From a virus: a stretch of 58,397 bases of DNA. Below, piece after piece: positions 7,472 through 53,660 of this stretch (the first letter of the stretch is position 1; the number at the start of each line of letters is the position of its first letter). Made by a program: the position numbers and the translations under genes. The notes below the pieces were generated by a model. It saw only the letters and a list, made by a program, of their open reading frames with translations, was not told the DNA's origin and ran no database searches. Location: IMG/VR virus record IMGVR_UViG_3300025466_000039, positions 1 to 58,397 of that record, one strand, 5' to 3'.

Positions 7472-7766
7472 ACCGCTACTAAACGCCTGTCGCGAGCTGC
7501 CTTGTCAGCATTGTGGCATCAGTGATGGGACTGTTGTGGCGGCTCATTCTAATCAACTGCGAGACGGCAAAGGACGCGGCCTGAAAGCTCACGATTATCG
7601 GGTTGCGTCACTCTGCTACAGGTGCCATATGGAATTAGACCAAGGCAAAGACTTATCTAAACAGGAAAGGATTGACTTGTTCGAAGCCGCCCATCGCAAA
7701 ACGATAGGCCAACTCTTTGAGAGAGGACTTATCTCTGTTTCTGCACCTGCGCAATCTCATCGTTAA
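7458..7766 (+). CDS. YbcO-like (DUF1364) HNH-type nuclease
   Basis: A 102-residue protein starting at ATG 7458 after AAAGGAAAAAG. The pattern CQHCG...VVAAHSNQ...GLKAHDYRVASLCYRCHMELDQG matches the DUF1364/YbcO family of small zinc-binding putative endonucleases found in lambdoid recombination regions (two Cys pairs, AHSN and CHMELD). It is the last gene of the operon. Its 3' end overlaps the 3' end of the giant minus-strand gene by 38 bases, with no terminator visible between. Confidence 0.8.
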   Translation: MYRNRPLLNACRELPCQHCGISDGTVVAAHSNQLRDGKGRGLKAHDYRVASLCYRCHMELDQGKDLSKQERIDLFEAAHRKTIGQLFERGLISVSAPAQSHR

Positions 7767-10700
7767 ACTGTTTCATTGTTTGAGTTTTGGCTGCTTCAAG
7801 CGCGCGTATATCTTTTATAGGTACCTTCGCTTGGAGCATTTCTTTTTTATCTTGGTTCATTTTGTTGACGTCGTTATAGTAACTATTAACTTCGTCAGCA
7901 AGAATTGCCGCAGGATATTGTTTATAAAACTTAGTTGGGTCTTGTCCGGCGGCCTCAATGTTCTTGACTTCATTTGCATACTTGTTCATCAATGTAACAT
8001 TGTTATAGAACTTGTCTTGAATGGCTGCCGCGCTTTTTGCATCACCATAGAAACGGCCAACAAGCGGAATCCTGTAACTTGGCTGAGATTCACTTGTGAA
8101 CCATGACTTAACTGTTTCTGCGCCTTTAATTACCTCGCGTGCAGCTCCTCCACCAACTTGACCAGCATAATAATCAAGCTCATCTGCTGTTGGGCTGATG
8201 TGGCCTTTTGTGAAGTGCGTACCTGGAGGTGAGCTGACATAGTTTAAGAACTCAGCAATCCATTGGCTAACTTGCGTTGCATTTTCCCTGCTCCTCATAA
8301 ACCCAGGTGTAGGTTTAAGAGCGGTGTCTTCTTTATAGATTGGCCGTCCAAACGCATCTTTATTCGTGGCTGTAGCCGCGATGGGATCAAGAACAGTTGG
8401 AGAAACCATTTGCAATAAAGAACCGCCACCCAATGGGTTAAATGCATCTGCAAATAAAGTGAGCACCTGTGTTGCCGCATCAGTCAATGGTTTTCCACCG
8501 CTGATTAAATGATTTTTACCAAGAACATATTCGGTAGCAATCCTTGCAACGCCAGGCACAACGTTATATCCAGGAGGCATTGGTAACGTTAAATACTTTT
8601 TATTGCCAATTGGAATAATGAAGTTTTTATCGCGAACATAGTCTGGGGGTTCATCTGCATCAAACCCAGCCGCCGCCATCCACAAGGCTTGGAGAACGCC
8701 AATGGTAAGACCGCCCGCAACAATCTTTCTTCCTGCCGGGCCTTTTAGCGTTTTTCCGACAAGAATTGTGCCCTGTACAGCTGGATTAAAGAATGCATAC
8801 AAAGCTTGTAAAAGAGGACTGGATTGACCTTTGCGGTTGAAGTTAATGGTGATGTTTTTAGCCAAACTGGCTGCACGTTCTTCGCTTAAATTATTATCAA
8901 GGGCGACTTTGAATACAGATAGACGAACAGCGTTTTCCATTGCTTCGTTATAGTCTGACAACATATCAAACAAATAGCGTGCTTTTTTCATGGCGCCTCT
9001 TTGAGTCTCGTCAGCCCACAATCTTTCAACAATTGTTGTATCTTTGCCGCTGAAGTTTCCTTTTGCAAACGACTCTCTAAATCCAGTTGTGCCACCAGCC
9101 CTGCGGAACCGATCATAAAGAGCAACATAGGGTCCTGTGACTGTTTGGTTTTTCCTGGCCGCCCTCTCATTTTGAATGATGGCAAACATTGCAGAAAATA
9201 CATGGCGAGCAACTTCTTTTTGCTTGCCAGCCAATGGAGTGTTGGTCAAATTAAATGCGGCGCCTTGAGCATCGCGCGCAAAGTTAATAACACCAAACAC
9301 AGGATTAAATTGTGTATTAACAGAGGCAAACCAACGCGTCATCATTGCCGTTGTGCCCAGCAGGCCACCCAAGGTCTGGGCGTCCAAGTTTGACATCGCC
9401 TGCGCCATTCTGATGGCTTTGGGATCCTTTGTATTAAAGAATATGTATCGATCTTTACCGTTGATCCTGACAGGGAATACATTGGGACTGCTTCTGAGGC
9501 CTGCATTAATGGTATAACGAACCTGTCCGGTTAAGGGATCAAGGCTGGGGGTCTTTGGCTCTTGGATGAAATTCTGTGCAGTAGAGATGGGCAGACCCAT
9601 CGAGACAAGCTCTTGATACAAGGCCGCTTTGTTTTTTACTGCATCGGGATTGACTGGTAGCCAAAAGTCTGGATTTGGGTTCTTTAATGCCAGGCCGTAT
9701 AGCGCACGACCAATTCGAGCTTTCTCAGATCGAATGATGGCACTCTCGCGTTGAATGGCTATGTTGGCAAGAATATCTACCACAGACTTTGATGACCCAT
9801 AGGCACGCTTCGATGCGCTTCCTTTGACCTGAAAGCCTTTGCCCAAACCGGCCCCATGATGCATGAAATCAAGCTCTTCCTGATCCCTCATGAGTGGAAT
9901 GTAATGCTTATAAGCTCTATTCCAATTGTCAATTGTTTCTTGAGTTTCTAGGCCGCGGTCAACAAGAATCTTTTGCGTGCCTTTAATAATGTCGTCTACT
10001 TTGGCGGCAATCTTTGCAAGCTCGGCCGCTTTTGTTGGATCAAGATTCTTAAAGTAATCTCTGGCCGCCTGAGTGCCAATACCAGAACCCGGCTCGTTAT
10101 CAACGTCTGCAAACCTGGGATTGATTTGTGCAATTGCATCATTACGCTCTTCGGCATGACGGTTATGCATATACTGCTCAAGATCGTCAATTGTAAGTTT
10201 AGCGCCTATTAAATCCTTGATGATTGGACTTAATTCATTTTTAAGAAAGTCTTTGATTTCATTGGCCGTCCTGCCATGATACAACTCCTCCTTCATGTAC
10301 GCATCAAACGCGTCATCAATCAGGCCAACATTTTTGGTAATCGCGGCTTGGACTTGCCTTGTATCAACGTGCTTGTCTGCAATTTTATAGTCAAGCGTGT
10401 TGATTAGATTGCCAAGTTTGGTCTCGGGCGCAAGATCCCAGGTCTTCTGCGGCGCAGGTCCGCCAAACACATTCCTCTTGCTCGGGGGACCGGGCGGGAA
10501 CATGTTGCCTTGTCGGCCTTGTGGGCTCAAGGGTGCAACTTGTTGCGATTGAGGAGCCGGCGGGAACATTTGGCCTTGGGATTTTAAACTAACACCAATA
10601 CCGGCGGCAACACTGGCTATAGACTGGCCTATTCTTTCGTTGGGCTTGCGACTGAATATATCGTTAAATACTTTATAGACTTCTGACTTGTGATTAACTC

Positions 10701-13700
10701 CAATAACCTTTTTGAGTCCTTCGAACAGGCGGCGCATTGCAAGCACAAAACGATCCCATCCAGAACCTAACTTCTTGTGCATCAACTTCTCGGCATTGAC
10801 AGCCCAATACTCTGATGGGGTTAAGAATTGATACCAGTTATTAAACTCTTCACGATCCTTTTCTTTGTTGCCGGTTTTTGGAACTGTAGGTATTGCAGCA
10901 ACAGCGGCGTCATATGTTGCATGACTAGGATTTGCAAAGAACACCTCAACCGCCTGGATATAATTTTTTGCTTGAGGATTTTGACTCTTTTTGACGGTTG
11001 CCTTGAAATCTCTTTCCCAAGCCTCAATCAAAGCAACCTTGGCCGCGGGGCTCATCATTTGTTCCATTGCGTGGGCCAACTCATGCCGAACGATTTCAGC
11101 CTTTATCACGCCTGCGGTTTTTTTATATAACTTAACAATTTGTTCAGCAAGATCAAACTCACCCAATGTGCTATTGAATATATCTTTAGATTGGATGACA
11201 GAGAGCTTTAGTCCCTCGAGTAAGAATGGTGCTTTTTCGTATGCAGCATGAATGACGTCATAGACTTCTTTTGCAATACCTTCTTCAGGCAATCCATTTC
11301 TTTTTGCTTTTTCGTAATTGTTTAAAAGCTGCCGAGCATATGTGTCAAAGTCCCCCGCAGTACGGGCTTCATCTTTGGTGTCCTCAATATAATCTTTAAG
11401 GTTTTTCGCAAGCGCATTTAAGTTTGTGAGCTCTTGCTGCAACGAAAGATTAGAGCCCTGCTTGGCCACTTCTTTCAAGACGTAAGCACGACGTTGGTTT
11501 ACTTTGGCATATTCCTGTACGGCGTTCTTTCTATCAATCTCCATTGTGGTTTGAGCACCAGGGTAGATTGGCATGTTGAAATTACGAACGGCAGCATTAA
11601 GAGGAATTTGATACTCCTCTTCCTTTGCGGCGATCTGTTCTTCACTTGGCTTTTTAGCCTCTTTAATTGGCGTCTTGATTTCTTTTGTAAGTGGCTCAAC
11701 GCGTTGGCGCATCATGTCATCACGATAGGTTGCCTTCCCGTTGACAAAGTCCATCGCATTTGTTGCACTATCGGGAACGATAAAGAGCTTGGCGCCATCC
11801 ATCTGAGATAGATGATTCTTAACCAAGTCACCAAACGTTGCCTTATCTACATTGATACAGCCAAACGAAAACCTAGAAACGTCAGGGCGTTCTGTCTTTA
11901 GGGCCGCCAGACGTTGTGCGGCGTCAGACTCATGCGTCCATACGGAATGCATGATGGTCATGGAGTAAGGGCCATGACGGCCTTCACCGGCGTGTTCGAT
12001 TACAAACACTTTGCCGTAATCATATTCACCGGCAGTCTCGGCCTCACCCTTAGAGCGGGATGCATCCCTCAAACCCAGGTTATATAGCCCAGCAGGCGTG
12101 ATCTTGTTGGCATCTATTTCATTAGATCCGGATGGCAAGAAATCACCCATGCTCTTGGACAACAATACCTTCTTATCCAACAGGAGAGATCCATCGGGAT
12201 TGAAGATAAAGTTTCTAGCCATCGGCTTGTCGGTCACGATAAAGAATTTATTGTTCTTCATCAACTCTTCTTTTAGAGTTGGATAAACGACGCTATAGAT
12301 CTGTTGTGCTGCTGGAGACATCTTTGCCTTTGCGTCCGCGGGGACTTCAGCATAGACGGTTTCAATGCGCGTCTCATATTGAGGAACCGCAATGATCTCT
12401 GGTTTGGTAATGAAGTTGGGATTGAGCACCATTGCAACAGATAGCAAGCTGTTTGCAATCTTATTGATGATAGGGCGAATCCTGTTCTTGATGGCCTTTG
12501 CGCCCTGCGTGATGAAGTTAAATACATCGTTATGCAGGCGCTCTAAAAATTCATTTGAGCCATGCTTGGCGCCGTACTCCTCCTCGAGCACAGCTTTTTC
12601 ATTGGCAGTCAACTTGTTGGATTCATCGGCAATCAATAACAATTGTTCTTCGTTACCAACCTCTTTAACCAAATCCGTCCCATCAATGATGTTGGACTCG
12701 TCTGTAATTTGTGGACCAAACTTGGCCAACAAAACACCAGGATCGTCTTCTTCTGCGAGAGCATCAATGATTGCCTGCTCTCTGGTTTTGCCTTTAGATA
12801 CGCCATCCAAAATAGCAGAACGCACTTTGCTGGCATCGGCTGTAACCTGCGTATTGGGTGACTCGTTAGCAACAATGTTTAATAAAGGATTGAGCTTGTA
12901 GTCAGATGCTGCGCCGAGAAAGTGAATCTTCTTTGGCTTTGACTCACGCAAGAAGTCAGCCAATTGATCTCTTGTGATAGCCTCTGCATTAGATGGAACG
13001 CCAACAATAAAGTCATCTGTACCCAGGGTCTTGACAACATGATCGTAAGCCTGCGATAGCGTCAATGCTCCATTTTGAATGGGAATCATTGGCTGAGTAA
13101 TATTGCCCTTGATTTCTGGAATGATCCAGTCTTTATGTTTATCAATTAAAGCTAACGACCCAGCTTGATCACCAACAATGTCTGGCATGACAATGATTGG
13201 ACGGGGATAATCCGTTTTTTCATCTTCGTTCAAATTATGAATTGCTTCAGTAATCTGATCGTACTTTGCAAGAATTTTATTAAAGTCAAGGGGCTTGGGT
13301 CCATTGCCCTTAAGGTTTTGCCTGAAGTTACTGAAAGCACCAGAGTCAATAAAGACCGGAACATTCATGTTCAAAATAGCGTGCGCAAGAGAGTCTATCG
13401 CATTGTTTGATAGTAACCCTACATCCACTCCTATTCCGTGGTTCTGATGGCTTCCTCGAGCCTTTACGCCTGACTCTAAATCGCTAACACCACTCATGCC
13501 TGATGCAAAGCGAACCATATCTTGTTTGATATTGGATAGAGCTCTTTGTTCTGGCGCCTCACCAAACAAATCCTCTTGGCCTTTGGCGGCGGCAATGTCG
13601 GCAGGACGATTACTTCCTGTCAAAGTAAACTCGCCAACGCCTTCATCGGCCTTGGCTTTAGCTTCCGCTTCTTTTTCGGCTTTTAATCGGTCTTCCTTGG

Positions 13701-16700
13701 CGCGTTCTGCTGCTCTGACTTCATCGGGTGTTTGACCGGTAAGTTCCAGTTGCGCTTTACTTGGCTCAAAAACTCTATTCTCGTCTTCGGGCTCAATGAC
13801 CGTATCAGCGAGGTCAGCTTCTCTTTGCTCATTAAATGCTTCTTCGAGGAGGAGGTTGACATCTTTTAACTCCAGTTGTTCTTTGATTTGATCTTCTAAC
13901 TCTTTGATGTTACCGCGCAAATCTTCTATTTCGCCGGTGATTTTTTCTATTTCTCTCTCGGCATCATACGTCATGTAATTGGGCGGATCTTCGCGCAATT
14001 TTTCTTTGATGTATTCAGAAGATTGTTTGTCATCAAAATTTGGATGATCGTGCCGCATTCCGTATGGCAAATATTCATCAAGATCGCCAGATGAAACAAT
14101 ATCAGCTAAATCAGCCCCGCCATTTTTGTTTTTAAGTTGAGTGTATTTTGTATCCGGAGAAATGTCGTTGACTTCTGATGCTTTTAATTTTTGTCTCAAG
14201 GCGCCAAATAAGCCTGTTGTTTTAACTCGTCTTCTGGCCATCTCAGCATATTCTAAATCCTTGTTGAGTTTTTCAAGATACAACTCATCTTCGGTTTTAT
14301 TTGTCAACTCTAGAGGGGGTGGAGTTTTTTTAACTCTAGTTTTTGTTGGAGTAATTAGTTTCTTTGCGGCCTTTATTGATTTATCGTGTTCAATCAAAGC
14401 CTTTTTCAATTCAGCATTGGCTTTTTGTATGGCCCTATTTTGCTCACCAGGCGTCTTCTTGTTGTTCCTGGCCATCTCATTAACAGCAATCTGACCTTTG
14501 TCTTTTAATATATCTGCGGTGCTATTTAAATCATCAATTGCTTTTTGATGTGCATCCGGATCTTTTGCCGCTGGCATGGACTCAGTTAATTGATTAACCA
14601 AATCATTTGACCTATTGATACCATCAACCGCGGGTTGCGCAAGTTTTTCTAATATGGGCGCCGGGGTTAACTTCGACTTGCCAACTTTAATTTTTGGTTC
14701 TATAGCGGCAGTTGGCTTTTCTTCTTCCGCCTTGGGTTCTTCTGACGGCAACTTCTCTTCAACTTTTGGAGCGGTTGGTTCTTCTTTTTTGACTTCGGCA
14801 GGCCTCTCTGTAGGAGCGGGCTCGTTAAACTTATGTGCTTTAACAGCTTGTTCTCTAACGAAATTCAAAGCGTTTGCCTGCGCCTCATCGCCAAACGTCT
14901 TATTGGAGAACATCCTTGCAGAACCAGGAATATACTTGCCTGCATCAGCATCAAACATGTTGGCTGTATAACCTGTAGGTGTTTTTAAAACGTGATATTC
15001 CGTGTTTTCACCCATAGGAATATTGGCCACTTGCTCAACATTGGGTGGCAACTTTGGTGCTGTAGCGATTGGCTCTTCAACTTTGGGCGCTTTAACTTTA
15101 GGTGCAGGAGCTTCTTTTTCGGCACCCATGCTTTCAGCAACCCTAACTATATCCGGACGATTGTTTTCTACACCAAAATTGTATGCTTGCTGTATTCCCT
15201 CTTTTGATCTTGCCATTGGGTTTATCAAAGAACTAATTGCAACATGCAAGGGATTGTCGGCAACGGTCTTGCCTTTGCTTTCATCTTCTTTACGAATTAA
15301 ATTAGCCTCTTCTAACAATTGATTGCGGTCAGCTCTAAGTTGAAATTGCTCAAGCTGAGTATCAAATGCTTTTTGGTTTTCAACAGGAGCTTCCTCGATG
15401 TTTTTACCACTCAGCTCATCCAACATAGCCTGAGTATCTTGACTCTCAGATGGCGCCGCAACTTGTTGCTCCTGTGGTTGCTGTTCTTGCGGCGGCTGCT
15501 CTGGAGGTGCAATAGCAACAGGCAACTTTTTATTGCGATCAACAGTCTCTTCTGGCTGAATCAATTCTTGATTGTAAGAATTGGGATCAAGTCTAGCTAT
15601 GGCTTCTCGTTTTATTTTCTCTGGAGAAAAATTGCCAGACTTTACATCTTCTTTAATGGCGTCAGCAATTTGCTTGTTTCTGCCATAGTCTGTGTTGTCG
15701 TAAACTTTACCAGCAATATGAGCCCCACCAGCCATAATCCCCGACATCAACATAACATCAGGCAAAACTTCTTTGGCAGATTTGGCAATATCACCCATAT
15801 CTGTAAATGAACGTTTGGGTTGATTGCTAAGTCCCGCATCAACTTCAACGTTATGTTGACCAGTCTGAGTAACGGTTTCGGTGCCAAGCTCTGTACCAAA
15901 TTCAAGAGCAGATGCGCCAAAAGACTTGAGCGTACCCATGAGACCTTTTCCGGCCTCTTTAAATATAACGCTACCTAATTTTGCACCCAAAGCATTACCA
16001 AGTGCTTCTGGAACCGCCTCCCAAAGGCCATGTTCTTGAACTAGATCGTTATATTGCTTGGCATAGTCCAGCCATTGCTTATCTGTTAGAGGCTTTCCTG
16101 TAGCCTTTACAGAAGCATCATCAAGATTTTCTCTAATGTCTCGTAGAAAACCATTGGTATCCATGCGGTAAGCAGCCAGACCAGACGCAGCTGTACCCGC
16201 GGCATATCCACCAACTGGGCCGGTAACCATGCCCACCGCACCAGCAGCCAATCCGGCACCCATAGAAAGTACCGAGAACATTGCATTCTGAGGCAACTCT
16301 CTGACTTTTTGACGGGTAATTCCTAAGATATATTCATCTTGTAAACTTGGATCTTTTGCGTTTTTCTTTGAGAGCTCTCTGGCCTCTGCAATAGCATCAT
16401 GCTGCCAATCCGTTTGCGATGTTAAATCTTCTGGTTTGTTGCCGCCAACTAAAGCCTGTGTTGCAGCTTTAGCGTAAGTGGGCGTAGCTTGTCCTGCTGC
16501 AAATATATCTTGCGCAAGATTTCCACCCAAAACCTTTGGACCAACTTGTTTACCTAATTCAGCCTCCCCTGTGGCTGATTCTGCAAATGGAGCCCACCAC
16601 GGTTTTTCTGCTGGCGAAGCGGATTGGGCGGCGGCAGGCACAGAAGGCTGTGCGACTGGAGCGGCCTGGGGCTGGAGCAAACCAGCCAAACCCAATTGAC

Positions 16701-16839
16701 GATTGACTAACTTATCTGTTTCTTCTGGCGTAGCCTCAGACGGAGCGGTATAACGATAATAACGCTTTATAAGTTCTGTCTGTGTAATGTCATCTGGAAC
16801 GCCGGAAACAATCGTTCCATCGGGCATCTGTACATCCAT
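7729..16839 (-). CDS. Giant virion-associated polyvalent protein (3,036 aa)
   Basis: It starts MDVQMPDGTIVSGVPDDIT, an N-terminus typical of phage internal or ejected proteins, behind AAGGTGCAATT. In order: a Gly/Ala-rich hydrophobic stretch at about 194-230; Pro/Glu/Lys linkers and coiled coils at about 400-1000; a region at about 1130-1370 with VFIDSGAFS, VMPDIVGD and HFLGAASD, like the TIM-barrel of tRNA-guanine transglycosylase-type enzymes; an L,D-transpeptidase-like part at about 1530-1700 with SFGCINV (Cys about 1661); HELAH at about 1919-1923 in a metalloprotease-like segment; then about 900 mainly helical residues resembling the C-terminal domains of large polyvalent proteins. Inference: it is packaged and injected, opens the cell wall and delivers enzymes. 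It is the last gene of the late operon. Confidence 0.8.
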   Translation of the reverse strand: MDVQMPDGTIVSGVPDDITQTELIKRYYRYTAPSEATPEETDKLVNRQLGLAGLLQPQAAPVAQPSVPAAAQSASPAEKPWWAPFAESATGEAELGKQVGPKVLGGNLAQDIFAAGQATPTYAKAATQALVGGNKPEDLTSQTDWQHDAIAEARELSKKNAKDPSLQDEYILGITRQKVRELPQNAMFSVLSMGAGLAAGAVGMVTGPVGGYAAGTAASGLAAYRMDTNGFLRDIRENLDDASVKATGKPLTDKQWLDYAKQYNDLVQEHGLWEAVPEALGNALGAKLGSVIFKEAGKGLMGTLKSFGASALEFGTELGTETVTQTGQHNVEVDAGLSNQPKRSFTDMGDIAKSAKEVLPDVMLMSGIMAGGAHIAGKVYDNTDYGRNKQIADAIKEDVKSGNFSPEKIKREAIARLDPNSYNQELIQPEETVDRNKKLPVAIAPPEQPPQEQQPQEQQVAAPSESQDTQAMLDELSGKNIEEAPVENQKAFDTQLEQFQLRADRNQLLEEANLIRKEDESKGKTVADNPLHVAISSLINPMARSKEGIQQAYNFGVENNRPDIVRVAESMGAEKEAPAPKVKAPKVEEPIATAPKLPPNVEQVANIPMGENTEYHVLKTPTGYTANMFDADAGKYIPGSARMFSNKTFGDEAQANALNFVREQAVKAHKFNEPAPTERPAEVKKEEPTAPKVEEKLPSEEPKAEEEKPTAAIEPKIKVGKSKLTPAPILEKLAQPAVDGINRSNDLVNQLTESMPAAKDPDAHQKAIDDLNSTADILKDKGQIAVNEMARNNKKTPGEQNRAIQKANAELKKALIEHDKSIKAAKKLITPTKTRVKKTPPPLELTNKTEDELYLEKLNKDLEYAEMARRRVKTTGLFGALRQKLKASEVNDISPDTKYTQLKNKNGGADLADIVSSGDLDEYLPYGMRHDHPNFDDKQSSEYIKEKLREDPPNYMTYDAEREIEKITGEIEDLRGNIKELEDQIKEQLELKDVNLLLEEAFNEQREADLADTVIEPEDENRVFEPSKAQLELTGQTPDEVRAAERAKEDRLKAEKEAEAKAKADEGVGEFTLTGSNRPADIAAAKGQEDLFGEAPEQRALSNIKQDMVRFASGMSGVSDLESGVKARGSHQNHGIGVDVGLLSNNAIDSLAHAILNMNVPVFIDSGAFSNFRQNLKGNGPKPLDFNKILAKYDQITEAIHNLNEDEKTDYPRPIIVMPDIVGDQAGSLALIDKHKDWIIPEIKGNITQPMIPIQNGALTLSQAYDHVVKTLGTDDFIVGVPSNAEAITRDQLADFLRESKPKKIHFLGAASDYKLNPLLNIVANESPNTQVTADASKVRSAILDGVSKGKTREQAIIDALAEEDDPGVLLAKFGPQITDESNIIDGTDLVKEVGNEEQLLLIADESNKLTANEKAVLEEEYGAKHGSNEFLERLHNDVFNFITQGAKAIKNRIRPIINKIANSLLSVAMVLNPNFITKPEIIAVPQYETRIETVYAEVPADAKAKMSPAAQQIYSVVYPTLKEELMKNNKFFIVTDKPMARNFIFNPDGSLLLDKKVLLSKSMGDFLPSGSNEIDANKITPAGLYNLGLRDASRSKGEAETAGEYDYGKVFVIEHAGEGRHGPYSMTIMHSVWTHESDAAQRLAALKTERPDVSRFSFGCINVDKATFGDLVKNHLSQMDGAKLFIVPDSATNAMDFVNGKATYRDDMMRQRVEPLTKEIKTPIKEAKKPSEEQIAAKEEEYQIPLNAAVRNFNMPIYPGAQTTMEIDRKNAVQEYAKVNQRRAYVLKEVAKQGSNLSLQQELTNLNALAKNLKDYIEDTKDEARTAGDFDTYARQLLNNYEKAKRNGLPEEGIAKEVYDVIHAAYEKAPFLLEGLKLSVIQSKDIFNSTLGEFDLAEQIVKLYKKTAGVIKAEIVRHELAHAMEQMMSPAAKVALIEAWERDFKATVKKSQNPQAKNYIQAVEVFFANPSHATYDAAVAAIPTVPKTGNKEKDREEFNNWYQFLTPSEYWAVNAEKLMHKKLGSGWDRFVLAMRRLFEGLKKVIGVNHKSEVYKVFNDIFSRKPNERIGQSIASVAAGIGVSLKSQGQMFPPAPQSQQVAPLSPQGRQGNMFPPGPPSKRNVFGGPAPQKTWDLAPETKLGNLINTLDYKIADKHVDTRQVQAAITKNVGLIDDAFDAYMKEELYHGRTANEIKDFLKNELSPIIKDLIGAKLTIDDLEQYMHNRHAEERNDAIAQINPRFADVDNEPGSGIGTQAARDYFKNLDPTKAAELAKIAAKVDDIIKGTQKILVDRGLETQETIDNWNRAYKHYIPLMRDQEELDFMHHGAGLGKGFQVKGSASKRAYGSSKSVVDILANIAIQRESAIIRSEKARIGRALYGLALKNPNPDFWLPVNPDAVKNKAALYQELVSMGLPISTAQNFIQEPKTPSLDPLTGQVRYTINAGLRSSPNVFPVRINGKDRYIFFNTKDPKAIRMAQAMSNLDAQTLGGLLGTTAMMTRWFASVNTQFNPVFGVINFARDAQGAAFNLTNTPLAGKQKEVARHVFSAMFAIIQNERAARKNQTVTGPYVALYDRFRRAGGTTGFRESFAKGNFSGKDTTIVERLWADETQRGAMKKARYLFDMLSDYNEAMENAVRLSVFKVALDNNLSEERAASLAKNITINFNRKGQSSPLLQALYAFFNPAVQGTILVGKTLKGPAGRKIVAGGLTIGVLQALWMAAAGFDADEPPDYVRDKNFIIPIGNKKYLTLPMPPGYNVVPGVARIATEYVLGKNHLISGGKPLTDAATQVLTLFADAFNPLGGGSLLQMVSPTVLDPIAATATNKDAFGRPIYKEDTALKPTPGFMRSRENATQVSQWIAEFLNYVSSPPGTHFTKGHISPTADELDYYAGQVGGGAAREVIKGAETVKSWFTSESQPSYRIPLVGRFYGDAKSAAAIQDKFYNNVTLMNKYANEVKNIEAAGQDPTKFYKQYPAAILADEVNSYYNDVNKMNQDKKEMLQAKVPIKDIRALEAAKTQTMKQFNDEIAQVQKQR
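10534..10547. repeat. Imperfect palindrome copy TGCAACTTGTTGCG
   Basis: One base off the consensus; in the giant gene, reads QQVAP in a low-complexity linker. Confidence 0.6.
15457..15470. repeat. Imperfect palindrome copy CGCAACTTGTTGCT
   Basis: One base off the consensus; in the giant gene, reads QQVAA in a Gln/Glu/Pro-rich linker. Confidence 0.6.
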
Positions 16840-49691: not shown

Positions 49692-50003
49692 ATGTATTCA
49701 CAATTCAAAACTCTAGAAAATCTAATCGATTATCACCTCACCAGTGAGCAAACCATGTACCTGTGCGACTTGACCGGCCTAAGTGTTGACGATCGCGGGT
49801 TTGACTCGCTCCAACACTGGTTCGACATCAACGACCCATTCCACACCGCCTCGAAAACCATGCGCGAGATTGGTGGCTCATTTGCCGGTGCGATCGGCGA
49901 GGCTTACCAGTGCGCCGACTCTCGCAACCGCTTGATCTTAATTACCGCCTTCAAGGATCTATTCGTTCGCTTTATGCCCACTAGTGTGACTGATGAGGCT
50001 TGA
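49692..50003 (+). CDS. Early protein of unknown function, end overlaps ribozyme
   Basis: A 103-residue protein (MYSQFKTLENLIDYHLTSEQ...) after AACTAAGGAAAACACACT. No domain recognised; the middle GGSFAGAIGEAYQCADSRNR is helical and the end is SVTDEA. The last seven codons (VTDEA and stop) are also the 5' strand of stem I, the CUGAUGA core and part of stem II of the hammerhead at 49984-50033. Cleavage happens 24 bases after the stop codon, so the message stays complete. Confidence 0.75.
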   Translation: MYSQFKTLENLIDYHLTSEQTMYLCDLTGLSVDDRGFDSLQHWFDINDPFHTASKTMREIGGSFAGAIGEAYQCADSRNRLILITAFKDLFVRFMPTSVTDEA

Positions 50004-50033
50004 TTAGCCGAAACCCCGCGAGGGGTCTCACAC
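49984..50033 (+). ncRNA. Type I hammerhead ribozyme 1
   Basis: Stem I GTGTGA (49984-49989)/TCACAC (50028-50033); core CTGATGA (49990-49996); stem II GGCT/AGCC with loop TGATT; GAAA (50010-50013); stem III CCCC/GGGG with GCGA tetraloop; T50026 and C50027 complete the GUC site. Predicted cleavage between 50027 and 50028. All bases required in the hammerhead core are present. Downstream leader CAACTACTGGAGAACC leads to ATG 50050. Confidence 0.95.
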
Positions 50034-50049
50034 AACTACTGGAGAACCA

Positions 50050-50499
50050 ATGAAAAACGAAATTATCTTAGCCCTTCACACCTTCGCACGCAAGCGCCCT
50101 CAGCTTGAATACGGCAACTATGGGAGCGCCTCGAGTTACCGCGCGGAGGCGCGCGCCATTACAAGAGACTTGCAACACGCACGCGCTCTACTTCGCAAAG
50201 TGGAGTTATCGGGTATCACCGCTCAAGATTTAATCAAGGCGAGTACTGAGGCATTCTCAGGCCGGTTAACGATTATGCCCGCCAACTCTTACAGCGACAA
50301 AATCCGGATCGATTATTGTGTTGGCCAATATTGGCCGACCGAATACCGCAAAGCAGTTTGCGCAGTATTGGCTCGCGCACTCTGGAATCACTGGATGGAA
50401 GATCGAAAAGAGGGCGAGTTTATGACCACCCGCCAAAAAATCCGCATACTGGCGCGCGTGGAGCTTGGAAGAACTATAGCGCAAGTCTATTTTAATTAA
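50050..50499 (+). CDS. Early protein of unknown function (between ribozymes 1 and 2)
   Basis: A 149-residue protein with ATG 50050 after ACTGGAGAACCA. Basic and helical: MKNEIILALHTFARKRPQLE, YRAEARAITRDLQHARALLR, KAVCAVLARALWNHWMEDRK. No known domain. It is the only gene on the RNA released between the first two hammerheads (50028-50543). Confidence 0.75.
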   Translation: MKNEIILALHTFARKRPQLEYGNYGSASSYRAEARAITRDLQHARALLRKVELSGITAQDLIKASTEAFSGRLTIMPANSYSDKIRIDYCVGQYWPTEYRKAVCAVLARALWNHWMEDRKEGEFMTTRQKIRILARVELGRTIAQVYFN

Positions 50500-50549
50500 G
50501 CATAACTGACGAGGCTTAATGAGCCGAAACCCCCGCGGGGGTCTTATGC
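50500..50549 (+). ncRNA. Type I hammerhead ribozyme 2
   Basis: Stem I GCATAA (50500-50505)/TTATGC (50544-50549); core CTGACGA (50506-50512, C at the free position); stem II GGCT/AGCC with loop TAATG; GAAA (50526-50529); stem III CCCC/GGGG with CGCG loop; GTC with cleavage after C50543. It begins at the base after the upstream TAA. The leader after cleavage is AACAACAAGGAAAC then ATG 50570. Confidence 0.95.
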
Positions 50550-50569
50550 AACAACAAGGAAACAAAACA

Positions 50570-50734
50570 ATGATTTTACTTACAAAATTTTGGGGTTATC
50601 TCACCCTCAAAACCGCGCTTTGTCTCGGCGGGTATGCGGTAACAGTCTTACAAGGCTCACCCAGTCAAACCCTCTTGATTGTCGGCTCATTGTCGGCTCT
50701 TGCAATCCCAGTATTTTATTATTTTGGAGAGTGA
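50570..50734 (+). CDS. Small two-span membrane protein (54 aa)
   Basis: ATG 50570 follows ACAAGGAAACAAAACA; a longer frame starting inside the ribozyme is rejected. The product is nearly all hydrophobic: MILLTKFWGYLTLKTALCLG, GYAVTVLQG and LLIVGSLSALAIPVFYYFGE, two short membrane helices. Early membrane proteins of phages often block superinfection or disturb the host envelope; no direct evidence here. Confidence 0.7.
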   Translation: MILLTKFWGYLTLKTALCLGGYAVTVLQGSPSQTLLIVGSLSALAIPVFYYFGE

Positions 50735-50738
50735 CACC

Positions 50739-50915
50739 ATGCTAATCGCTTACCACGCAAAACATGAGCGCCACGGATGGCGCGAGATATGTCGTCAACC
50801 TATCGACTGGGATGGATGGGGAGATTTCGACCGCTCCATGATTGACGAACTAATCAAAAACGGGTCTCACGTTTTAACGTGCGGGTGGAATATGTACCAA
50901 CTAATTGAGGGTTAA
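50739..50915 (+). CDS. Small early protein (58 aa)
   Basis: Start at ATG 50739 with TTGGAGAGTG upstream; the frame extends further 5' but only into the previous gene. A Trp/His-rich protein (MLIAYHAKHERHGWREICRQ, PIDWDGWGDFDRSMIDEL). Function unknown. Confidence 0.65.
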   Translation: MLIAYHAKHERHGWREICRQPIDWDGWGDFDRSMIDELIKNGSHVLTCGWNMYQLIEG

Positions 50916-50918
50916 ATT

Positions 50919-51566
50919 ATGAGAGTAATTATGCTGAAAAAAGAGGCGAGCGCGCTTACTGGTGGACTCACCGAAACTTCTAAGATGCCTTGCAAGTCCT
51001 ACAGTTTACCGACTGAGGCGTGCGAGACCGGTTTCAAAATGGCTCAAATTGAGGGGTCGATCTGTTTTTCATGCTATGCGGATCGTAATTTTTATTTGAT
51101 GTATCAAAACACAATTAAACCCGCCCAATTCGCTCGACTTGATTCAATTAATGATTCCCATTGGGTGGACGCGATGGTTACTCTAATTGGCTTAGATCCT
51201 TATTTTAGGTGGCACGACTCCGGAGATCTCCAAGGCCTTGATCACTTCAAGAAAATTATAGAGGTTGCGACATTGACGCCAAAAACAAAACACTGGCTTC
51301 CGACCCGTGAATACTCAATTATTAAGGATTTTATCTCAGCCGGTGGCGTAATCCCCAAAAACTTAATTGTCCGGCTCTCGGGTATGTATCCTGACAAGGC
51401 CGTAAAAGTCCCCAAAAGCCTCGAAGGCGTGCGAGGCGTGACAACGTCTAACGTCCACACCAAAAAGCCTCTAGGGCTCGCCTGTAAAGCCCCAGAGCAA
51501 GCCGGCGAGTGTCGCGATTGTCGCGCGTGTTGGACTTCGAAACCGGTGTCCTACTTGATGCACTAG
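50919..51566 (+). CDS. GP88-like protein with Cys clusters
   Basis: A 215-residue protein (or from ATG 50931). TSKMPCKSYSLPTEACETGF followed by GSICFSCYADRNFYLM matches the GP88 family known from mycobacteriophages (K-M-P...S-x-x-L-P...C...CxxCYA). Then RWHDSGDLQGLDHFKKIIEV and WLPTREYSIIK; the end is CKAPEQAGECRDCRACW. Eight or so Cys suggest metal or Fe-S binding, possibly radical-SAM-like, but no CxxxCxxC is seen. The stop codon is followed at once by ribozyme 3. Confidence 0.7.
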   Translation: MRVIMLKKEASALTGGLTETSKMPCKSYSLPTEACETGFKMAQIEGSICFSCYADRNFYLMYQNTIKPAQFARLDSINDSHWVDAMVTLIGLDPYFRWHDSGDLQGLDHFKKIIEVATLTPKTKHWLPTREYSIIKDFISAGGVIPKNLIVRLSGMYPDKAVKVPKSLEGVRGVTTSNVHTKKPLGLACKAPEQAGECRDCRACWTSKPVSYLMH

Positions 51567-51617
51567 CATGACTGATGAGGCCTGAGAGGCCGAAACCCGA
51601 GCGATCGGGTCTCATGC
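51566..51617 (+). ncRNA. Type I hammerhead ribozyme 3
   Basis: Stem I GCATGA (51566-51571)/TCATGC (51612-51617); core CTGATGA (51572-51578); stem II GGCC/GGCC with loop TGAGA; GAAA (51592-51595); stem III CCCGA/TCGGG with GCGA tetraloop; GTC, cleavage after C51611. It shares only the last base of the upstream TAG. The leader AACTACAAGGGAAACA leads to ATG 51634. Confidence 0.95.
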
Positions 51618-51633
51618 AACTACAAGGGAAACA

Positions 51634-51801
51634 ATGAAATATTCCGAATTTGACTATATCCAAGCCGGTTATCTATTTGAGAAAAACCGCATTAAGCTCG
51701 CACGATTTGAGCGTATGCTCGCGCGCGAATATCAGGAACACAAAAACAAAGCGGTCTTTTTGTTCAACCGCGGTCGATTGGAGGCTCGCTCATGTATCTA
51801 G
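51634..51801 (+). CDS. Small early protein (55 aa)
   Basis: ATG 51634 after ACAAGGGAAACA, the usual post-ribozyme leader. The product MKYSEFDYIQAGYLFEKNRI, KLARFERMLAREYQEHKN is helical and basic, ending RGRLEARSCI. The end overlaps the next start by 10 bases. Function unknown. Confidence 0.7.
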   Translation: MKYSEFDYIQAGYLFEKNRIKLARFERMLAREYQEHKNKAVFLFNRGRLEARSCI

Positions 51802-51974
51802 TCTTTAACCACAATGCCCGATTTTTGGGCGACTTTGCGACCATGCATGAGGCTCAAACTGAGGCCATGCTCTATATGGGGCAAACCGGAAACCCCGCCT
51901 ACATCACAACCCGCAACTTGTTGCGCCCCGAAGAGCGCGACTCTTACGAACAATTTTTGGAGATACACGAATGA
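51792..51974 (+). CDS. Small early protein (60 aa)
   Basis: ATG 51792 behind GGAGGCTCGCTC. MYLVFNHNARFLGDFATMHE, AQTEAMLYMGQTGNPAYI, then RNLLRPEERDSYEQFLEIHE. It contains one of the CGCAAC-TT-GTTGCG elements. ATGA overlap with the next gene. Function unknown. Confidence 0.65.
   Translation: MYLVFNHNARFLGDFATMHEAQTEAMLYMGQTGNPAYITTRNLLRPEERDSYEQFLEIHE
51912..51925. repeat. Palindrome variant CGCAACTTGTTGCG
   Basis: Within the 60-residue gene at 51792-51974, reads RNLLRP, a different frame from the other copies. Confidence 0.8.
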
Positions 51975-52204
51975 CTTCTATCGCAACAAAATATAACTGG
52001 TTACTGGTGGACAAAACCGGCGTAGCAGTCCCCAAGGGCGCGATCATCAAAACACGCAACGGCGAAGAGTTCGAGCTCACTGGGGGGAGACCCCCGCACA
52101 ATGACGGCTCAACCGGTCGCGTATGGGTTAAGCCCGTGGGCGAACCCGAAACCACGCAAGAGCTCTACCCGACAGTTTTTGATCTGAAATGGGAAATAGT
52201 CTAA
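51971..52204 (+). CDS. Small early protein (77 aa)
   Basis: Starts on an ATGA overlap. A beta-rich protein: YNWLLVDKTGVAVPKGAIIK, GEEFELTGGRPPHNDGSTGR, VWVKPVGEPETTQELYP. The LTGGRPPHNDGSTGRVWV part recurs in small phage proteins of unknown function. Its TAA is followed at once by ribozyme 4. Confidence 0.7.
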   Translation: MTSIATKYNWLLVDKTGVAVPKGAIIKTRNGEEFELTGGRPPHNDGSTGRVWVKPVGEPETTQELYPTVFDLKWEIV

Positions 52205-52256
52205 GCGCAACTGATGAGCCCTGACTGGGCGAAACCCGCGCGAGCGGGTCTTGTGC
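52205..52256 (+). ncRNA. Type I hammerhead ribozyme 4
   Basis: Stem I GCGCAA (52205-52210)/TTGTGC (52251-52256, one G-U pair); core CTGATGA (52211-52217); stem II GCCC/GGGC with loop TGACT; GAAA (52231-52234); stem III CCCGC/GCGGG with GCGA tetraloop; GTC, cleavage after C52250. It starts at the base after the upstream stop. The leader AACTACAGGAGGCC leads to ATG 52276. Confidence 0.95.
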
Positions 52257-52275
52257 AACTACAGGAGGCCAAAAA

Positions 52276-53501: not shown

Positions 53502-53660
53502 TTGACTAGATGCGAAGAATTGGGAGTCTGTCAATCCATTGGGTGCGCAGACTGCCCGCAACTTGTTGCGGTGGAAGACCCGCAACTTGTTGCGCTTACA
53601 GCATTTTTACAAGGCTTTCACCCGCCAACTGAGACCCAACCCGAGCCTCAAAATCGTTAA
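53502..53660 (+). CDS. Small Cys-rich protein with TTG start (52 aa)
   Basis: TTG 53502 lies 7 bases after AAGGAG. The product begins LTRCEELGVCQSIGCADC (four Cys, zinc-knuckle-like), then twice PQLVA encoded by two copies of the palindromic repeat, then a Pro-rich end. Its 3' 65 bases overlap the 3' end of the Toprim gene on the other strand. Coding is likely from the ribosome-binding site and Cys pattern but not certain. Confidence 0.5.
   Translation: MTRCEELGVCQSIGCADCPQLVAVEDPQLVALTAFLQGFHPPTETQPEPQNR
53557..53594. repeat. Two palindrome variants 24 bp apart (53557-53570, 53581-53594)
   Basis: Both are CGCAACTTGTTGCG and both read PQLVA in the 52-residue gene at 53502-53660. The second reaches the 3' end of the Toprim gene. 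Confidence 0.85.

Follow-up and report, generated by a model that had tools for sequence, protein, structure and literature searches.

How could a phage divide one long messenger RNA (mRNA) among many small genes? The question is raised by a 58,397-nucleotide (nt) stretch of viral DNA (IMG/VR record IMGVR_UViG_3300025466_000039, positions 1 to 58,397; hereafter, the window), in which the gaps of one operon hold four short elements. The elements have the anatomy of type I hammerhead ribozymes, covary and are conserved in other phage contigs, and lie at gene boundaries. We propose, with a probability of roughly 80%, that they are constitutively active, compact type I hammerheads that split a single polycistronic phage mRNA.

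A search of both strands with a hammerhead descriptor (stem I, CUGANGA, stem II, GAAA, stem III, UH, and stem I′, in this order) recovered exactly four complete type I hammerhead cores in the window, all on the plus strand (Table 1). Markov-shuffled one-strand windows gave no descriptor matches (n = 200), and a broader pattern search of the same viral record agrees with the four-element result. The same four elements, with the same cut points, had been picked out in a first-pass annotation. The elements are 50 to 52 nt long and have short closed loops and no added domain. Their topology is that of type I: the open stem I holds the 5′ and 3′ ends, and loops close stems II and III. Stem I consists of 6 perfect base pairs in all four copies, and stem II of 4 base pairs, to which copies 2 and 3 may add a fifth. 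The GC-rich stem III, capped by a short loop, is followed by UC and stem I′. The A15.1-U16.1 and G10.1-C11.1 pairs are present in four of the four copies, together with the core CUGANGA ... GAAA ... UH. The hammerhead is the minimum-energy fold (RNAfold) of copies 1, 3, and 4. By eye, no consistent pairing extends stem I of the window copies beyond 6 base pairs, and loop II has no complementarity to the downstream AACUAC.

Whether covariance models recover the elements, a check proposed in the first-pass annotation, which would have taken the lack of a match as a refutation, depends on the model. In a search of the window with Rfam release 15 at the curated gathering thresholds, which included RF00163 (Hammerhead_1) and RF02275, no Rfam model matched. 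With relaxed thresholds, copy 4 alone was reached, by HH9 (23.3 bits, E 0.016; cut-off 52) and by Hammerhead_1 (19.1 bits, E 0.0021; cut-off 34). In contrast, a purpose-built covariance model, R1, finds all four copies and nothing else in the 58 kb (62.0 to 67.3 bits, E 5.9e-13 to 2.7e-14). R1 was made from 44 hammerheads of other phage contigs that were reached by a pattern with no stem I pairing or flank requirement, and the window and its close relatives were excluded from the training. It also detects the hammerhead of Pseudomonas phage PaP3 (34 bits), which a relaxed-core descriptor missed. Most of the compact relatives score below the Hammerhead_1 cut-off, and some from the same scans exceed it (36-37 bits). 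Given the strong R1 matches and the sub-threshold relaxed scores, the failure of Rfam to report the array is due to the tuning of its models and thresholds.

Each element lies between a gene's stop codon and the start codon that follows, as had been described. Copy 1 contains the upstream stop codon (50001-50003), copies 2 (50497-50499) and 4 (52202-52204) adjoin theirs, and copy 3 shares one base with its own (51564-51566). Shine-Dalgarno sequences are located within the leaders, outside the ribozymes, and are mostly unpaired in the uncleaved fold (RNAfold). Each window hammerhead, taken with the 3 bases that precede it, also contains stop codons in all three frames, so that the upstream gene would terminate in any phase. 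Small genes fill the segments between the cuts, and a GP88-family protein is the only product with an assigned function. The operon had been called early, a label that can be only tentative, since a promoter scan returned sites no more numerous than expected by chance and GP88 is the only functional assignment.

Table 1. Hammerheads, leaders, and open reading frames (ORFs) of the operon, in window positions, and hammerheads of cultured phages, by locus
Feature	Positions	Strand	Predicted cleavage	Details
ORF, 103 amino acids (aa)	49692..50003	+		First operon gene; no Pfam or PHROG match; stop UGA in loop II of copy 1
Hammerhead copy 1	49984..50033	+	after 50027	R1 62.0 bits, E 5.9e-13; descriptor; minimum-energy fold; stem I GUGUGA/UCACAC; loop II UGAUU; stem III CCCC-GCGA-GGGG
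Leader after copy 1, 22 nt	50028..50049	+		UGGAG before ATG 50050
ORF, 149 aa	50050..50499	+		Sole gene between copies 1 and 2
Hammerhead copy 2	50500..50549	+	after 50543	R1 64.1 bits, E 1.7e-13; descriptor; stem I GCAUAA/UUAUGC
Leader after copy 2, 26 nt	50544..50569	+		AAGGAAA before ATG 50570
ORF, 54 aa	50570..50734	+		Hydrophobic
ORF, 58 aa	50739..50915	+
GP88-family protein, 215 aa	50919..51566	+		Pfam PF17338, E 1.6e-18; stop UAG shares first base of copy 3
Hammerhead copy 3	51566..51617	+	after 51611	R1 63.2 bits, E 3e-13; descriptor; stem I GCAUGA/UCAUGC
Leader after copy 3, 22 nt	51612..51633	+		AAGGGAAA before ATG 51634
ORF, 55 aa	51634..51801	+
ORF, 60 aa	51792..51974	+
ORF, 77 aa	51971..52204	+		Stop adjoins copy 4
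Hammerhead copy 4	52205..52256	+	after 52250	R1 67.3 bits, E 2.7e-14; descriptor; stem I GCGCAA/UUGUGC
Leader after copy 4, 25 nt	52251..52275	+		AGGAGG before ATG 52276
ORF, 78 aa	52276..52512	+		First past copy 4; phrog_10258, E 6.4e-7, PHROG of unknown function
Cultured-phage hammerheads	L370 2946-3011, L372 4218-4283, L369 7288-7350

The four copies are members of a larger family. A motif search of IMG/VR found the flanked motif in at least 45 contigs, and relaxed patterns gave more; this and the other counts of relatives are lower bounds. The compact form, with an uninterrupted 6-bp stem I and covarying stems, recurs in at least about 400 distinct relatives from phage contigs, and one collection gathers at least 212 unique relatives with a stem I of six base pairs. 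The core was a search requirement, and its conservation among the relatives is therefore not independent evidence; in the four window copies it is. Stem I, however, is almost always exactly 6 bp long, and all six pairs are formed in 86 of the 94 matches to a pattern that demanded no pairing; all 84 of the good pattern-only matches have A/A at position 7. In the alignment of the 44 training hammerheads, whose selection required the core-adjacent helix bases, 99.7% of the cells are paired (26-38% in slid controls), both sides change in 13 of 15 pairs, and the covariation score is 0.90, compared with 0.16 in shuffled and at most 0.11 in slid alignments. The compensated stem changes that had been read from the window copies hold in the relatives as well.

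Covariation also extends beyond the stems. Across 406 unique copies, the last base of loop II and nt 7 past the cut are U-A in 305, A-U in 57, G-A in 33, A-A in 6, and U-U in none, although the copies are related and came from scans that in some cases fixed nt 7 as A and in others sampled by loop class, so that a Fisher P value overstates the significance of the association. The association is equally clear in two scans in which loop II was fixed and nt 7 left free. With a UNANU pentaloop II, nt 7 is A (275 of 275 copies), and with a GUAA tetraloop II, it is U (40 of 41). According to the account given in PMC9217987 of O'Rourke, Estell and Scott (2015), a U seven nt past the cleavage site, when paired with the A of the loop II tetraloop, confers full activity on minimal hammerheads; the designs of PMC9217987 itself did not reproduce an activity gain from this pair. 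The phage hammerheads show both the reported pair and its reversed form. We suggest that, at the level of the family, the covariation of nt 7 with loop II marks an activity-restoring tertiary contact between the stem I region and loop II, a kind of contact on which activity at low Mg2+ depends.

The relatives sit between co-directional genes. Among the 351 copies with enough flanking sequence, 327 are followed by an ATG-started ORF 8-70 nt past the cut (mode, 25), compared with 38% at random positions. The stop codon of the upstream ORF falls inside the ribozyme in 188 of the 351 and at most 10 nt upstream of it in 136 (324 together). Hammerheads precede 201 downstream gene families, which indicates that they are general boundary elements. 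The 377 boundaries comprise 309 distinct pairs of upstream and downstream families, the same downstream family recurring behind different upstream families, and near-identical hammerheads occur in different contexts. Arrays like that of the window, which the first-pass annotation had suggested looking for in related phages, contain 1 to 12 copies on a single strand within each record, and many phages have one copy. One contig has 12 hammerheads in 20 kb (L365, G020:20000-39798), and another has 9 in 4.2 kb (L366, G049:1-14000). The hammerheads of L366 are followed by an A/T-rich leader with no obvious Shine-Dalgarno sequence. In four other loci (L307, L320, L340, and L296), hammerheads with stem I GUCCUU/AAGGAC have no nearby downstream start codon; a similar stretch that follows them (AC-G/C-C-ACCG...CGGUG) looks structured, and it may represent a different non-coding RNA context.

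Three cultured phages, Pelagibacter phages HTVC019P and Jormungand and Flavobacterium phage elemoA_7-9A, carry one strong hammerhead each (48-55 bits). The closest annotated relatives by terminase or GP88 (HTVC027P, 023Pt_psg01, and DSL-LC04) have no hammerheads, and a blastn search with window positions 48.7-53.6 kb gave no match among annotated phages. Copies resemble each other more as orthologues (0.90) than within one genome (0.72), and 20 orthologues differ in the core only at the free position N7. Gene conversion between copies was considered and rejected on the basis of these identities, which indicate that little of it occurs. Together with clean presence or absence at a boundary, they indicate positional inheritance of the copies, which are also open to gain and loss.

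How would such an array act? Processing of a polycistronic mRNA, as the first-pass annotation also concluded, is the most likely role. We infer that the four elements of one mRNA would cleave themselves during or after transcription in this phage, with a presumed benefit to its physiology. Complete cleavage would divide the transcript into a segment up to 50027, a one-gene segment (50028-50543), two segments of three genes each (50544-51611, which includes GP88, and 51612-52250), and a segment from 52251 onward. Upstream products would terminate with the GC-rich hairpin of stem III and a 2′,3′-cyclic phosphate, and downstream products would start with a 5′-hydroxyl and have a leader of 22-26 nt and their own ribosome binding site. 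The stability and translation of adjacent genes would thereby be expected to uncouple, since in RNA decay generally a 5′-hydroxyl offers 5′-monophosphate-dependent RNase E poor entry and a hairpin end with a cyclic phosphate withstands 3′ exonucleases. Because ribosome binding sites are located outside the ribozymes and are kept in relatives with no ribozyme, tuning of stability or coupling is likelier than switching translation on. One could also speculate that, where stop codons overlap a ribozyme, the terminating ribosome would transiently block its folding.

Several observations weigh against this proposal. Several close relatives (GP88 81-84% identical) cleanly lack the ribozyme after GP88 and keep the downstream Shine-Dalgarno sequence, so that cleavage is not essential for expression of the next gene. 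Copy 2 has a competing register of stem III (RNAfold). The last loop II base and nt 7 are U-A in copies 1 and 4 but form the rarer combinations G-A in copy 2 and A-A in copy 3, and copies 2 and 3 may therefore differ in cleavage speed. Neither a phage promoter nor a transcript boundary was found.

Could the elements be something other than segmenting ribozymes? It is highly improbable that they are non-catalytic hairpins (terminators or RNase sites, for instance) whose likeness to hammerheads is accidental. Stem III does form a stable GC hairpin, capped by GNRA or UUCG-type loops, but a model trained elsewhere recovers all four elements and shuffled sequences yield none. A terminator reading was rejected because the elements have no U-tract and are absent from the terminator scan. 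Regulated switches (aptazymes) or ribozymes that sense salt or Mg and control the downstream gene are brought to mind by the HF1/HF2 halovirus variant, which lies 13 nt upstream of a helicase gene and for which salt-dependent control was suggested. We consider them very unlikely here, because the elements are minimal, precede diverse genes, and leave the ribosome binding site outside the ribozyme and mostly unpaired before cleavage.

Two further explanations seem improbable to us, each to a similar degree. In one, the RNA between consecutive cuts (516, 1068, and 639 nt) would be excised and its 5′-hydroxyl and 2′,3′-cyclic phosphate ends joined into circular mRNAs, by the reverse reaction or by an RtcB-type ligase. 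The ends left by two successive hammerheads are chemically compatible, and the tandem hammerheads of retrozymes and viroids do yield circles (PMC7761336). However, Perreault et al. (PMC3088659) looked in tandem phage arrays for spliced or circular RNA products without finding any, no RNA ligase was found among the window proteins scanned (a part of the ORFs), and many phages have a single copy. In addition, a 6-bp stem I would leave the downstream product with one short strand, which would disfavor religation. In the other explanation, the elements would be mobile or recombination linkers for the swapping of gene cassettes at the DNA level, with ribozyme activity incidental. Clean presence or absence at one boundary, the diversity of family pairs, and near-identical hammerheads in different contexts are all compatible with such linkers. 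An invariant core and compensated stem changes, on the other hand, are explained by a function of RNA and not of DNA, even if the scans required an intact core and are thus uninformative about how common core-mutated copies are. The scarcity of gene conversion also argues against linkers, and neither a transposase nor a target duplication was seen.

The operon is flanked upstream by a diverging terminase-small-subunit-like gene and downstream by converging helicase and Toprim-domain genes. An 18-nt repeat with the palindromic core GCAACTTGTTGC is present at window positions 51909-51926, 53554-53571, and 53578-53595; two of the three copies fall past the last operon genes, where transcription converges, and the repeat is perhaps an operator or terminator. 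Elsewhere in the window, a minus-strand gene (1736-2128) encodes a phage protein that contains the C-terminal domain of RNA polymerase alpha (PF03118, E 3.6e-17) and is possibly a transcription-modifying factor, and one minus-strand ORF (7729-16839) extends over 3036 codons. No tRNA genes were found in the window.

Beyond this operon, the compact hammerheads (50-52 nt, an uninterrupted 6-bp stem I, and a pairing of nt 7 with loop II that can be A-U or U-A) could be a widespread and distinct minimal class that many tailed phages use for general, protein-free segmentation of mRNA. We regard this conjecture as evenly balanced. It would have hammerheads at any gene boundary, in up to 12 copies per contig, often providing the preceding gene with its stop codon and the following gene with its leader, and it would have the class under-annotated because most members fall under Rfam cut-offs. 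Phage hammerhead arrays are common, and the function of prokaryotic hammerheads has been called an open question (PMC6155905). An operon with four elements, relatives with 0 to 12, orthologous boundaries with and without an element, and cultured carriers together make up a natural experiment. If cleavage sets mRNA stability or gene dosage, catalytic RNA replaces RNase III or additional promoters and terminators. The conserved nt 7-loop II pair would be a natural counterpart of the engineered minimal, fully active hammerhead and useful for small insulators.

The first-pass annotation knew of no operon-wide hammerhead series in phages. However, Perreault et al. 2011 (PMC3088659) described clustered phage and prophage hammerheads, proposed that they cut long phage transcripts, and found that tandem arrangements undergo cleavage in vitro and, in one case, in E. 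coli. The window array shows the arrangement reported there, with at least two hammerheads on the coding strand at co-directional gene boundaries, and it therefore belongs to an already known type. As in the clusters of Agrobacterium tumefaciens, Azorhizobium caulinodans, and Clostridium scindens, several hammerheads flank single genes or short blocks. Those clusters are in prophage and bacterial loci and are of mixed types, whereas the window has four uniform type I copies in one metagenomic phage operon, and arrays among its relatives reach 12 copies per contig. The PaP3 hammerhead, reported to be active (Perreault et al.), is likewise an intergenic type I phage element with a short leader upstream of a gene start, but it is a single copy with a long stem III and reported core variation. 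The HF1/HF2 halovirus element resembles those of the window in its short distance from a start codon in a polycistronic region, and a mapped RNA 5′ end lies at most 3 nt from its cut (PMC3088659); it differs in being a single core variant from an archaeal virus. Rfam Hammerhead_1 has the same topology and core, yet scores the best window copy at just 19 bits. RNase III processing of the T7 early mRNA resembles our proposal in that one transcript gives rise to short, separately stable mRNAs, but RNase III leaves a 5′-phosphate and a 3′-hydroxyl, whereas hammerhead cleavage is catalyzed by RNA and leaves a 5′-hydroxyl and a 2′,3′-cyclic phosphate. Features that may be new relative to these systems are the wide occurrence and uniformity of the compact form, the natural covariation of nt 7 with loop II, and the arrays of 9-12 copies.

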